Part shown: one piece after another, positions 28,401 to 34,400 of the stretch | Position numbering within the stretch: the first letter of the stretch is position 1 | Layout: every line of letters begins with the position of its first letter | Translations under genes and position numbers: made by a program | From: Apostichopus japonicus | Lineage: Eukaryota > Echinodermata > Holothuroidea > Aspidochirotida > Stichopodidae | NCBI RefSeq assembly: GCF_037975245.1 | Contig: NC_092572.1 | Span: forward strand, 9,382,001 to 9,446,000 | Direction of reading: 5' to 3' | Length of the DNA: 64,000 bases | Notes under the pieces: model-generated | Told to the model about the DNA's origin: nothing | Databases searched by the model: none | What the model saw: only the letters and a program-made list of their open reading frames with translations

Positions 28401-31400
28401 AAACTAAGGAAATCTACAGTGAACGTAGTTTGTATGTTTGCTATTCTTAGCAATTATTAACATCAATATAATTCTCTTTGCATTTCATTGTATATTTATA
28501 TTACAGAAAATCAATAGTTTAAAGCCTAGGTGACTGGAATTCTTTAAGGCTTGGGTGTTATTGATTATCTCCCAGCCTTCAGAATTCACATCAAACAGAG
28601 AAACTAGGAGACATCAATGGTGACATACCTTAATATTATTGTGTTCACCTTATCTTTGAGAATTCACATCAAAAGGAAAAGGGGAGCTAAGCACAGTCAA
28701 ACTCAACTTGTTATAGTGTATCCCTTTGAATATTGGCATCAACAGATCAAGTAAGGAACACCAGATGTGGTATACCTTGTTATTGTATATCCCTTACCCA
28801 TAAGTATTCATATGTATGGAGAAACCTAGGGACATTTACAGACTTAACATACCTTGTTATTGTGTATCCCTTACCACTTAAAGTATTAATATCTATGGAG
28901 AAACCTAGGGACATTTACAGACTTAACATACCTTGTTATTGTGTATCCCTTACCACTTAAAGTATTAATATCGATGGAGAAACCTAGGGACATTTACAGA
29001 CTTAACATACCTTGTTATTGTGTATCCCTTACCACTTAAAGTATTAATATCGATGGAGAAACCTAGGGACATTTACAGACTTAACATACCTTGTTATTGT
29101 ATATCCCTTACCCATAAGTATTCATATGTATGGAGAAACCTAGGGACATTTACAGACTTAACATACCTTGTTATTGTGTATCCCTTACCACTTAAAGTAT
29201 TAATACCGATGGAGAAACCTAGGGACATTTACAGACTTAACATACCTTGTTATTGTTTATCCCTTACCACTTAAAGTATTAATACCGATGGAGAAACTTA
29301 GGGACATTAACAGACTTAACATACCTTGTTATTGTGTATCCCTTACCCATAAGTATTCATATGTATGGAGAAACCTAGGGACATTTACAGACTTAACATA
29401 CCTTGTTATTGTATATCCCTTACCCATAAGTATTCATATGTATGGAGAAACCTAGGGACATTTACAGACTTAACATACCTTGTTATTGTGTATCCCTTAC
29501 CACTTAAAGTATTAATACCGATGGAGAAACCTAGGGACATTTACAGACTAAACATACCTTGTTATTGTGTATCCCTTACCACTTAAAGTATTAATATCGA
29601 TGGAGAAACCTAGGGACATTTACAGACTTAACATACCTTGTTATTGTGTATCCCTTACCACTTAAAGTATTAATACCGATGGAGAAACCTAGGGACATTT
29701 ACAGACTTAACATACCTTGTTATTGTTTATCCCTTACCACTTAAAGTATTAATACCGATGGAGAAACCTAGGGACATTTACAGACTTAACATACCTTGTT
29801 ATTGTGTATCCCTTACCCATAAGTATTCATATGTATGGAGAAACCTAGGGACATTTACAGACTTAACATACCTTGTTATTGTTTATCCCTTACCCATAAG
29901 TATTCATATGTATAGAGAAACCTAGGGACATTTACAGACTCAACATACCTTGTTATTGTATATCCCTTACCCATAAAAATTCATATGTATGGAGAAACCT
30001 AGGGACATTTACAGACTCAACATACCTTGTTATTGTATATCCCTTACCCATAAGTATTCATATGTATGGAGAAACCTAGGGACATTTACAGACTTAACAT
30101 ACCTTGTTATTGTTTATCCCTTACCCATAAGTATTCATATGTATGGAGAAACCTAGGGACATTTACAGACTTAACATACCTTGTTATTGTATATCCCTTA
30201 CCCATAAGTATTCATATGTATGGAGAAACCTAAGGACATTTACAGACTTAACATACCTTGTTATTGTATATCCCTTACCCATAAGTATTCATACCGATGG
30301 AGAAACCTAGGGACATTTACAGACTCAACATACCTTGTTATTGTATATCCCTTACCCATAAGTATTCATATGTATGGAGAAACCTAGGGACATTTACAGA
30401 CTCAACATACCTTGTTATTGTATATCCCTTACCCATAAGTATTCATATGTATGGAGAAACCTAGGGACATTTACAGACTTAACATACCTTGTTATTGTTT
30501 ATCCCTTACCCATAAGTATTCATATGTATGGAGAAACCTAGGGACATTTACAGACTTAACATACCTTGTTATTGTATATCCCTTACCCATAAGTATTCAT
30601 ATGTATGGAGAAACCTAGGGACATTTACAGACTTAACATACCTTGTTATTGTATATCCCTTACCCATAAGTATTCATACCGATGGAGAAACCTAGGGACA
30701 TTTACAGACCTAACATACCTTGTTATTGTATATCCCTTACCCATAAGTATTCATATGTATGGAGAAACCTAGGGACATTTACAGACTTAACATACCTTGT
30801 TATTGTATATCCCTTACCCATAAGTATTCATATGTATGGAGAAACCTAGGGACATTTACAGACTAAACATACCTTGTTATTGTGTATCCCTTACCCATAA
30901 GTATTCATATGTATGGAGAAACCTAGGGACATTTACAGACTTAACATACCTTGTTATTGTATATCCCTTACCCATAAGTATTCATATGTATGGAGAAACC
31001 TAGGGACATTTACAGACTTAACATACCTTGTTATTGTGTATCCCTTACCACTTAAAGTATTAATACCGATGGAGAAACCTAGGGACATTTACAGACTAAA
31101 CATACCTTGTTATTGTGTATCCCTTACCACTTAAAGTATTAATATCGATGGAGAAACCTAGGGACATTTACAGACTTAACATACCTTGTTATTGTGTATC
31201 CCTTACCACTTAAAGTATTAATACCGATGGAGAAACCTAGGGACATTTACAGACTTAACATACCTTGTTATTGTTTATCCCTTACCACTTAAAGTATTAA
31301 TACCGATGGAGAAACCTAGGGACATTTACAGACTTAACATACCTTGTTATTGTGTATCCCTTACCCATAAGTATTCATATGTATGGAGAAACCTAGGGAC

Positions 31401-34400
31401 ATTTACAGACTTAACATACCTTGTTATTGTTTATCCCTTACCCATAAGTATTCATATGTATGGAGAAACCTAGGGACATTTACAGACTTAACATACCTTG
31501 TTATTGTATATCCCTTACCCATAAGTATTCATATGTATGGAGAAACCTAGGGACATTTACAGACTCAACATACCTTGTTATTGTATATCCCTTACCCATA
31601 AGTATTCATATGTATGGAGAAACCTAGGGACATTTACAGACTTAACATACCTTGTTATTGTTTATCCCTTACCCATAAGTATTCATATGTATGGAGAAAC
31701 CTAGGGACATTTACAGACTTAACATACCTTGTTATTGTATATCCCTTACCCATAAGTATTCATATGTATGGAGAAACCTAGGGACATTTACAGACTTAAC
31801 ATACCTTGTTATTGTATATCCCTTACCCATAAGTATTCATACCGATGGAGAAACCTAGGGACATTTACAGACTCAACATACCTTGTTATTGTATATCCCT
31901 TACCCATAAGTATTCATATGTATGGAGAAACCTAGGGACATTTACAGACTCAACATACCTTGTTATTGTATATCCCTTACCCATAAGTATTCATATGTAT
32001 GGAGAAACCTAGGGACATTTACAGACTTAACATACCTTGTTATTGTTTATCCCTTACCCATAAGTATTCATATGTATGGAGAAACCTAGGGACATTTACA
32101 GACTTAACATACCTTGTTATTGTATATCCCTTACCCATAAGTATTCATATGTATGGAGAAACCTAGGGACATTTACAGACTTAACATACCTTGTTATTGT
32201 ATATCCCTTACCCATAAGTATTCATACCGATGGAGAAACCTAGGGACATTTACAGACTTAACATACCTTGTTATTGTATATCCCTTACCCATAAGTATTC
32301 ATATGTATGGAGAAACCTAGGGACATTTACAGACTTAACATACCTTGTTATTGTATATCCCTTACCCATAAGTATTCATATGTATGGAGAAACCTAGGGA
32401 CATTTACAGACTTAACATACCTTGTTATTGTATATCCCTTACCCATAAGTATTCATATGTATGGAGAAACCTAGGGACATTTACAGACTTAACATACCTT
32501 GTTATTGTGTATCCCTTACCCATACGTATTAATATCAATGGAGAAACCTAGGGACATTTACAGACTTAACATACCTCGTTATTGTTTATCCCTTACCACT
32601 TAAAGTATTAATACCGATGGAGAAACCTAGGGACATTTACAGACTTAACATACCTCGTTATTGTGTATCCCTTACCCATACGTATTAATATCGATGGAGA
32701 AACCTAGGGACATTTACAGACTTAACATACCTTGTTATTGTGTATCCCTTACCACTTAAAGTATTAATACCGATGGAGAAACCTAGGGACATTTACAGAC
32801 TTAACATACCTTGTTATTGTTTATCCCTTACCACTTAAAGTATTAATATGGATGGAGAAACCTAGGGACATTTACAGACTTAACATACCTTGTTATACAT
32901 CCCTAACCCATACGTATTAATATCAATGGAGAAACCTAGGGACATTTACAGACTTAACATACCTTGTTATTGTTTATCCCTTACCACTTAAAGTATTAAT
33001 ATCGGTGGAGAAACCTAGGGACATTTACAGACTAAACATACCTTGTTATTGTGTATCCCTTACCACTTAAAGTATTAATATCGGTGGAGAAACCTAGGGA
33101 CATTTACAGACTTAACATACCTTGTTATTGTGTATCCCTTACCACTTAAAGTATTAATATCGATGGAGAAACCTAGGGACATTTACAGACTAAACATACC
33201 TTGTTATTGTGTATCCCTTACCACTTAAAGTATTAATATCGATGGAGAAACCTAGGGACATTTACAGACTAAACATACCTTGTTATTGTGTATCCCTTAC
33301 CACTTAAAGTATTAATATCGGTGGAGAAACCTAGGGACATTTACAGACTTAACATACCTTGTTATTGTGTATCCCTTACCACTTAAAGTATTAATATCGG
33401 TGGAGAAACCTAGGGACATTTACAGACTAAACATACCTTGTTATTGTGTATCCCTTACCACTTAAAGTATTAATATCGATGGAGAAACCTAGGGACATTT
33501 ACAGACTAAACATACCTTGTTATTGTCTCCCTTACCACTGAAAGTATTAATATCGGTGGAGAAACCTAGGGACATTTACAGACTTAACATACCTTGTTAT
33601 TGTGTATGCCTTACCACTCAAAGTATTAATATCGTTGGAGAAACCTAGGGACATTTACAGACTAAACATACCTTGTTATTGTGTATCCCTTACCACTTAA
33701 AGTATTAATATCGATGGAGAAACCTAGGGACATTTACAGACTAAACATACCTTGTTATTGTGTATCCCTTACCCATAAGTATTAATATCGATGGAGAAAC
33801 CTAGGGACATTTACAGACTTAACATACCTTGTTATTGTGTATCCCTTACCACTTAAAGTATTAATATCGATGCAGAAACCTAGGGACATTTACAGACTAA
33901 ACACACCTTGTTATTGTGTATCCCTTACCACTCAAAGTATTAATATCGATGGAGAAACCTAGGGACATTTACAGACTTAACATACCTTGTTATTGTTTAT
34001 CCCTTACCACTTAAAGTATTAATACCGATGGAGAAACCTAGGGACATTTACAGACTTAACGTACCTCGTTATTGTGTATCCCTTACCACTTAAAGTATTA
34101 ATACCGATGGAGCAACCTAGGGGCATTTACAGACTTAACGTACCTCGTTATAGTGTATCCCTTTGCCATGAGTATTAACATCAACAGAAATACAGCATCG
34201 GATGTCGCCTGAAATATTCTGGCGGTCGTTCGCCAGAAGGGGGCCTCGGTCCCGGTGCGGGCGTAATTGAAGTAGAATATGATGAAACAACACAATGACA
34301 AAACTGTGAAGAAGAAAAAGGGAGCAATATTATTCAAACATACATGTAATATTGTAGGATAACTTGCCTCTGTAGAAAGTGTTCAATGATTTAGTTTTTG

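Follow-up and report, generated by a model that had tools for sequence, protein, structure and literature searches.

A TMEM145-like gene of Apostichopus japonicus with an intron largely made of tandem copies of the preceding exon's end and its splice donor

Here we describe an intron of a TMEM145-like gene in Apostichopus japonicus that is built almost entirely from tandem repeats of a segment which includes the preceding exon's end and runs across the exon-intron border. The gene lies on the minus strand of a 64,000-nt stretch, called the window throughout (NC_092572.1:9,382,001-9,446,000), of assembly GCF_037975245.1 (671,581,487 bases in 35 contigs); our analysis covers the DNA of this one assembly, with splice sites inferred from open reading frames (ORFs) and reading frames. 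The exon from which the copies derive, hereafter the parent exon, is 160 nt long (34144..34303, minus, first base 34303) and its ORF matches PF10192 (GPR180-TMEM145_TM, E 5.8e-15), while an exon upstream of it matches PF21892 (TMEM145_N, E 6.3e-19; 69 bits against a curated cut-off of 28.1). The predicted real donor, ACGAG|GTACGTTAAG (34134..34149, minus), has its first intron base at 34143, and the reading frame runs from it into the next exon and the PF10192 match. The intron between them measures 6,578 nt (27566..34143, minus; donor at 34143, acceptor AG ending at 27566, both from ORFs and frame), and the next exon, 94 nt long (27472..27565, minus), continues the frame of the parent exon inside the PF10192 match. 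Joined together, the parent exon and the next three exons give one PF10192 match (profile 42-222, E 2.5e-47). The frame is continuous and the joined match single, so that the next exon (27565-27472), the donor at 34143 and the parent exon fit one gene; with 161.7 bits against a curated PF10192 cut-off of 23.7, that gene is a member of the TMEM145/GPR180 family.

A genome-wide search with the joined protein listed eight matches, four of them here and four on contigs C18 and C23. The latter (C23 near 10.25, 10.28 and 12.53 Mb; C18 near 7.57 Mb) are weak, cover the later part of the protein only (residues 109-168) at E 1.9e-5 to 4.8e-4 and 27-38% identity, and possibly represent related receptors. 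Two 72-nt exon-like pieces, each with an acceptor and a donor, lie at 37524-37595 and 36166-36237 on the minus strand; they are 67% identical as DNA, both read like the same membrane segment (GILESDMAF... and GILETDMVM...), and the pair may represent mutually exclusive or tandem exons of the TMEM145-like gene. A search of Rfam gave no match across 27000-35000, and a search of the PDB by sequence gave none at E 0.1.

The intron opens with the main array (28775..34143, minus), which adjoins the real donor at 34143 and, cut from donor to donor, holds 69 units: 39 of 77 bp, 29 of 79 bp and one of 74 bp. Tandem Repeats Finder (TRF) reports the same array as 28772-34176 with a period of 77, 69.5 copies and 95% matches. 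By definition (tandem units of about 10-100 bp, many copies, inside an intron) it is an intronic minisatellite. Each unit is made up of about 50 nt like the exon end, a donor, and 27 nt like the intron start, the source of the copied exon part being the last 50-52 nt of the parent exon. The 77-bp and 79-bp units are on average 97.8% and 97.9% identical to their own consensus. An earlier note on this DNA had placed such an array at 28740..34303; the array itself stands, with 69 units, but its last donor lies at 28775, 34303 is the first base of the exon, and exon-end copies continue beyond the limit at 28740.

Indeed, when the exon end plus 27 nt of intron was used as a probe between the main array and the next exon, 12 further matches emerged at 28746-27833, with scores of 15-31 against a maximum of 15.5 in 200 random 1.22-kb stretches of the window. 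Since random stretches reach 15.5, the weakest of the 12 (score 15, a partial unit) does not stand alone. Six of them are decayed copies (28217..28774, minus; matches at 28746-28239, scores 17-29) that are 47-64% identical to the exon segment and, in an alignment read by eye, have lost the donor GT in four cases and kept it in two. The other six (scores 15-31, the last one partial) form a second array of 69-bp units (27833..28216, minus; TRF 27841-28216, 5.4 copies) whose donors read TAG|GTATGT. Altogether, about 80 copies stretch from 34143 to 27833, or 6,311 of the 6,578 nt (96%); at the acceptor end, 267 nt lie outside the copies, a fact that bears on whether duplication made the intron itself. 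The 69-bp array and the 77/79-bp array score 15 against each other, less than either scores against the exon, but the 77-bp unit is matched across its junction by some of the decayed copies as well; both observations bear on whether the two arrays arose independently. The decayed copy at 28746-28693 (minus), although far from the exon, keeps a stretch (CAAAGGGATACACTATAACAAG) nearer to it than the main units do. Within the copy-filled part of the intron, 28472-28556 has no clear exon-end match and is perhaps a copy decayed beyond recognition.

The likeness between units and exon does not depend on the intron part. The 160-nt exon alone scores 22, 20 and 28 against the doubled 77-, 79- and 69-bp consensuses, compared with maxima of 15, 15 and 14 for 500 dinucleotide shuffles of each unit and of 13, 14 and 14 for 500 shuffles of the exon, and with 8-10 on the opposite strand. 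Thus the earlier note's observation that the units align with the exon end and cross the exon-intron border was right in its border and motifs, and the significant similarity on which it had staked its claim holds under shuffling of unit and exon alike. Identity to the parent steps at the splice site: the 69 main units average 72.5% in the exon part (0.68-0.78) and 90.6% in the 27-nt intron part (0.37-0.96), the lowest value meaning that at least one unit, the outermost one, does not fit.

The unit of the main array also appears to be private to this locus. Allowing up to three mismatches, a 33-nt unit core found 68 matches across all 671,581,487 bases, every one in this array, and its reversed control found none in the same genome-wide search; similarly, all 30 matches of a 324-base query, among the best candidates scored, lie here. 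The second refutation that had been named, abundance of the unit elsewhere, is therefore not what the genome holds. Could the resemblance be chance, or the array an ordinary satellite that merely adjoins an exon? Minisatellites are common in this genome, with 23 overlapping TRF rows (period at least 30, length at least 200) in a background sample of 20 stretches of 10 kb (200 kb). However, the longest array in that sample is 1,505 bp and its highest donor density 6.6/kb, the scores here beat 500 of 500 shuffles for each of the three consensuses, two arrays as well as the decayed copies match the same exon end, and the core of the main-array unit is found only here; we consider such a coincidence practically negligible. 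A comparison of 14 TRF arrays in the window with their own 1.5-kb flanks, for which the background was drawn in direct orientation only, left, besides the two arrays here, four others above their background maximum: 10528 (16.0 vs 11.5), 55870 (27.0 vs 14.5), 43794 (14.0 vs 10.0) and 44782 (12.5 vs 12.0). Their best flank matches fall at 10591 and 55927, both beside the array, and at 43136 and 45049, respectively. None of the four was tied to an exon, and the idea that arrays in the window are in general seeded by donors was dropped.

Part of the growth of the main array is recent. Between 29318 and 32257 (minus) lies an internal duplication at a shift of 1,548 bp, in which 31461-30866 is identical to 29913-29318 over 596 bp and 32257-31782 to 30709-30234 over 476 bp; it is these identical runs that point to recent expansion. 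Long identical runs are also a typical place for assembler error, and an assembly artefact could have inflated the copy number. Against this, 35 distinct sequences occur among 72 units (the 69 main units and three of 69 bp), and 35 contigs for 671.6 Mb, with the window in a contig of 34.6 Mb, suggest a long-read assembly. An artefact of this kind seems very improbable to us; even if the copy number were somewhat off, the origin from the exon end would still stand.

Turning to the donors themselves, scored with a donor matrix and against the U1 5' end, the real donor reaches 9.18 and the usual unit donor 8.91, with U1 pairing of -6.5 and -6.8 kcal/mol, and 68 of the 69 unit borders score at least 8. 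The roughly 70 border donors foreseen by the earlier note are thus present, and they are joined by a second donor-like site, GTAAGG, in the 77/79-bp units (68 sites: 38 of TGG|GTAAGG, score 8.42, and 30 of GTG|GTAAGG, score 9.32). These second sites pair with U1 at -9.7 and -8.5 kcal/mol, where the real donor, over the same 9 nt, pairs at -6.2, and the parent exon reads GGCAAAGG at the corresponding position. Including the real donor, the main array has 137 sites scoring at least 8, leaving 136 pseudo-donors at about 25/kb; by comparison, the rest of the window has 1.06/kb on one strand and 0.90/kb on the other, and the 200-kb genome sample 0.84 and 0.83/kb. Seven other donors of the host gene, placed from ORFs, score 6.9-12.1, so the real donor and its copies alike are of ordinary strength.

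Such a density invites a regulatory explanation, in which the pseudo-donors would compete with the real donor for U1 and delay or block excision; the length of the array would then tune gene output by way of retention or truncation. The contrast with about 1/kb elsewhere speaks for it, as does the fact that reading through the real donor yields 14 codons and then a stop; furthermore, cryptic donors that promote intron retention and a decoy-exon model are described in a published account (PMC8706089). However, the decoy exons described there have both splice sites, and acceptors here are mostly poor. Nor are the donor positions clearly better conserved: in the 77-bp units one of nine donor positions varies against 24 of 68 outside, in the 79-bp units three of nine against 13 of 70, and four of the six old copies have lost their GT. 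Donors are thus not clearly protected in the young units, which, with the GT loss in the old copies, fits the prediction of neutral decay. On balance we regard decoy-donor regulation as unlikely.

The earlier note had proposed several ways in which the units could take part in splicing, not all of which survive. Recursive splicing lacks its signal, since TAG|GTTTCT, the AG|GT joint of the unit, has a donor score of -0.65, whereas the real donor reaches 9.18. Shielding from premature polyadenylation finds nothing obvious to shield, as neither AATAAA nor ATTAAA occurs on the gene strand of the intron, although this means little in a sequence that repeats one unit. As for mini-exons, the CCCTAG put forward as an acceptor is a poor candidate: by an ad hoc measure it is preceded by 55% pyrimidine, whereas the parent-exon acceptor has 90% and eight real acceptors, placed from ORFs, have 70-95%. 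A mini-exon from the unit TAG to the border donor carries a stop in all 68 units that have that TAG (one unit lacks it), and from the TAG to the GTAAGG donor in 67 of 67.

We had at one stage read this as every mini-exon yielding a stop, but that reading was based on the TAG acceptor only and was dropped after a wider microexon test (AG with at least 65% pyrimidine, donor of at least 7, spacing of 9-90 nt), in which 24 of 63 acceptor-donor pairs could be read into the next exon without a stop (19 pairs span 24 nt, four span 33 nt and one spans 51 nt). Mini-exon use more generally may therefore still occur, with another AG (TTTAAG) giving in-frame, stop-free candidates in 23 units. The 24-nt candidates encode SGKGYTIT and start from TTTAAG or TTTGAG in 19 main-array units of the 79-bp type; the 33-nt candidates are in frame, come from four units of the 69-bp array, and account for all four pairs found at 75% pyrimidine or more. 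It is conceivable that the intron serves as a bank of alternative exons, with TTTAAG in the 79-bp units and the 69-bp array as acceptor and microexons of 24 or 33 nt sometimes included to re-encode the exon end. In its favour are the 24 open pairs and, in our own reading, one real acceptor of the host gene that also ends in AAG. AAG is nevertheless a weak acceptor, the majority of units (the 77-bp type) have no TTTAAG site, and seven further 24-nt pairs contain a stop. In addition, 40 control stretches of equal length gave a mean of 1.7 open pairs and a maximum of six, but the excess in the array reflects the repetition of three types and not 24 independent cases. This use of the units strikes us as quite improbable.

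What distinguishes the exon from its copies gives some indication of how the array was shaped. Differences between the exon and the 77-bp consensus fall 0/5/9 at first, second and third codon positions (P 0.009, with small counts), and within the last 32 nt five of six differences are at third positions (P 0.018). This third-position bias leads us to read much of the change as having occurred on the side of the constrained exon, the array keeping older states.

Taken together, the best explanation, and in our judgement probably the correct one, is an old duplication of the exon-intron border that was later amplified and is bounded by selection, with the first donor in use and the copies neutral. 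Long ago, some 50 nt of exon end and the adjoining 27 nt or so of intron start would have been duplicated in tandem, as one segment, within the intron. Unequal exchange or slippage may then have multiplied the copies in at least two bursts, of which one gave the large 77/79-bp array and another the 69-bp array, leaving decayed copies in the stretch between the two, until 96% of the intron consisted of copies. Exchanges that altered the exon would have been purged by coding selection, while the first part of the intron would have been free to be homogenised; coding selection on the exon could thus explain the exact coincidence of the array's end with the real splice site. The earlier note had pictured serial duplication starting from that site: a tandem duplication spanning exon end and donor is supported, but its apparent start there is better read as the limit that selection seems to set. 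In the RNA, the first donor is most likely the one used, because the acceptor of its exon is good and the frame is kept, and the copies would be pseudo-donors that leave with the intron. The array, in short, resembles a runaway DNA repeat whose copies are probably neutral.

Several observations weigh against this account. The copies score like the real donor (8.91 vs 9.18) and GTAAGG pairs better, so it cannot be taken for granted that they coexist silently; moreover, 23 units hold microexon candidates that are in frame and free of stops, and alternative use is conceivable. The third-position bias could also mean that the units were once coding, and it is missing from the 69-bp array, whose differences from the exon are distributed 2/4/4 over the three codon positions. 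One could accordingly imagine an array that acts in the RNA, its more than 100 U1-binding sites holding the pre-mRNA or the excised intron or delaying splicing, its microexons sometimes repeating the exon end, and its length and unit mix serving as a heritable rheostat, the second, better-pairing site having been gained in a unit that then expanded. We hold this extended picture to be improbable and keep to border duplication with neutral copies.

Elsewhere in the window, several features were noted in passing. An array at 26917-27326, in the next intron, is T-rich on the gene strand, lies near or at the acceptor end and is, by eye, unlike the exon. A COPA-like stretch on the plus strand (4379-4903) has matches below the curated cut-off (TPR_COPA_B 23.6 bits vs 33), and an array at 8253 starts, by eye, some way after the COPA-like exon. 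MORN repeats are encoded at 52979-53269 (minus, E 1.4e-20), and a 544-residue ORF at 62364-63998 (minus), open at the window end, looks by eye like a retrotransposon integrase.

The locus offers a natural competition experiment, with one real donor and, downstream of it, about 70 copies that nearly equal it and have a similar exon context upstream. Precise splicing here would mean that the choice among donors is made by position and exon definition, not by donor strength or the sequence next to it. The locus is also a clear example of intron growth from the intron's own 5' splice site, with decayed copies from which that growth could be dated. Selection on the exon, moreover, would be a simple rule by which an array can come to end exactly at an exon.

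Ordinary intronic minisatellites may show internal higher-order duplication, and the array shares with them its tandem units, length classes and nested recent duplication; unlike them, its unit copies the end of the adjoining exon together with a donor. The nearest precedent is human IFI6 (6-16, G1P3), whose splice-donor minisatellite, reportedly described by Turri, Cuin and Porter in 1995, has a short unit of about 12 nt. There, according to a later source that cites it, two downstream repeat units serve as donors and three mRNAs result (PMC4526556). By that account, the two loci share a minisatellite at the 3' end of an exon whose repeats offer multiple donors; here, too, there is a donor-like site in each repeat (68 of 69 borders scoring at least 8) and the array adjoins the donor at 34143. 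Unlike IFI6, the units here are 69-79 bp long, include about 50 nt of coding exon and fill the intron, and reading through leads to a stop. Intron gain by tandem duplication, the subject of two reports (PMC4974935, PMC2891723), likewise involves duplication of a segment that spans an exon-intron border and brings a splice signal with it, but there one duplication makes a new intron, whereas here some 80 copies seem to have enlarged an existing intron. The decoy exons and cryptic donors described for intron retention (PMC8706089) are alike in placing non-productive splice sites near a real one, and unlike in that acceptors here are mostly poor and regulation is hypothetical. No title or visible opening of an abstract that we found mentions such an array; most subscription journals lay outside this search, and we do not claim its absence from print. 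What sets the array apart from these precedents is the size of its units, their coding content and the near-complete filling of the intron.

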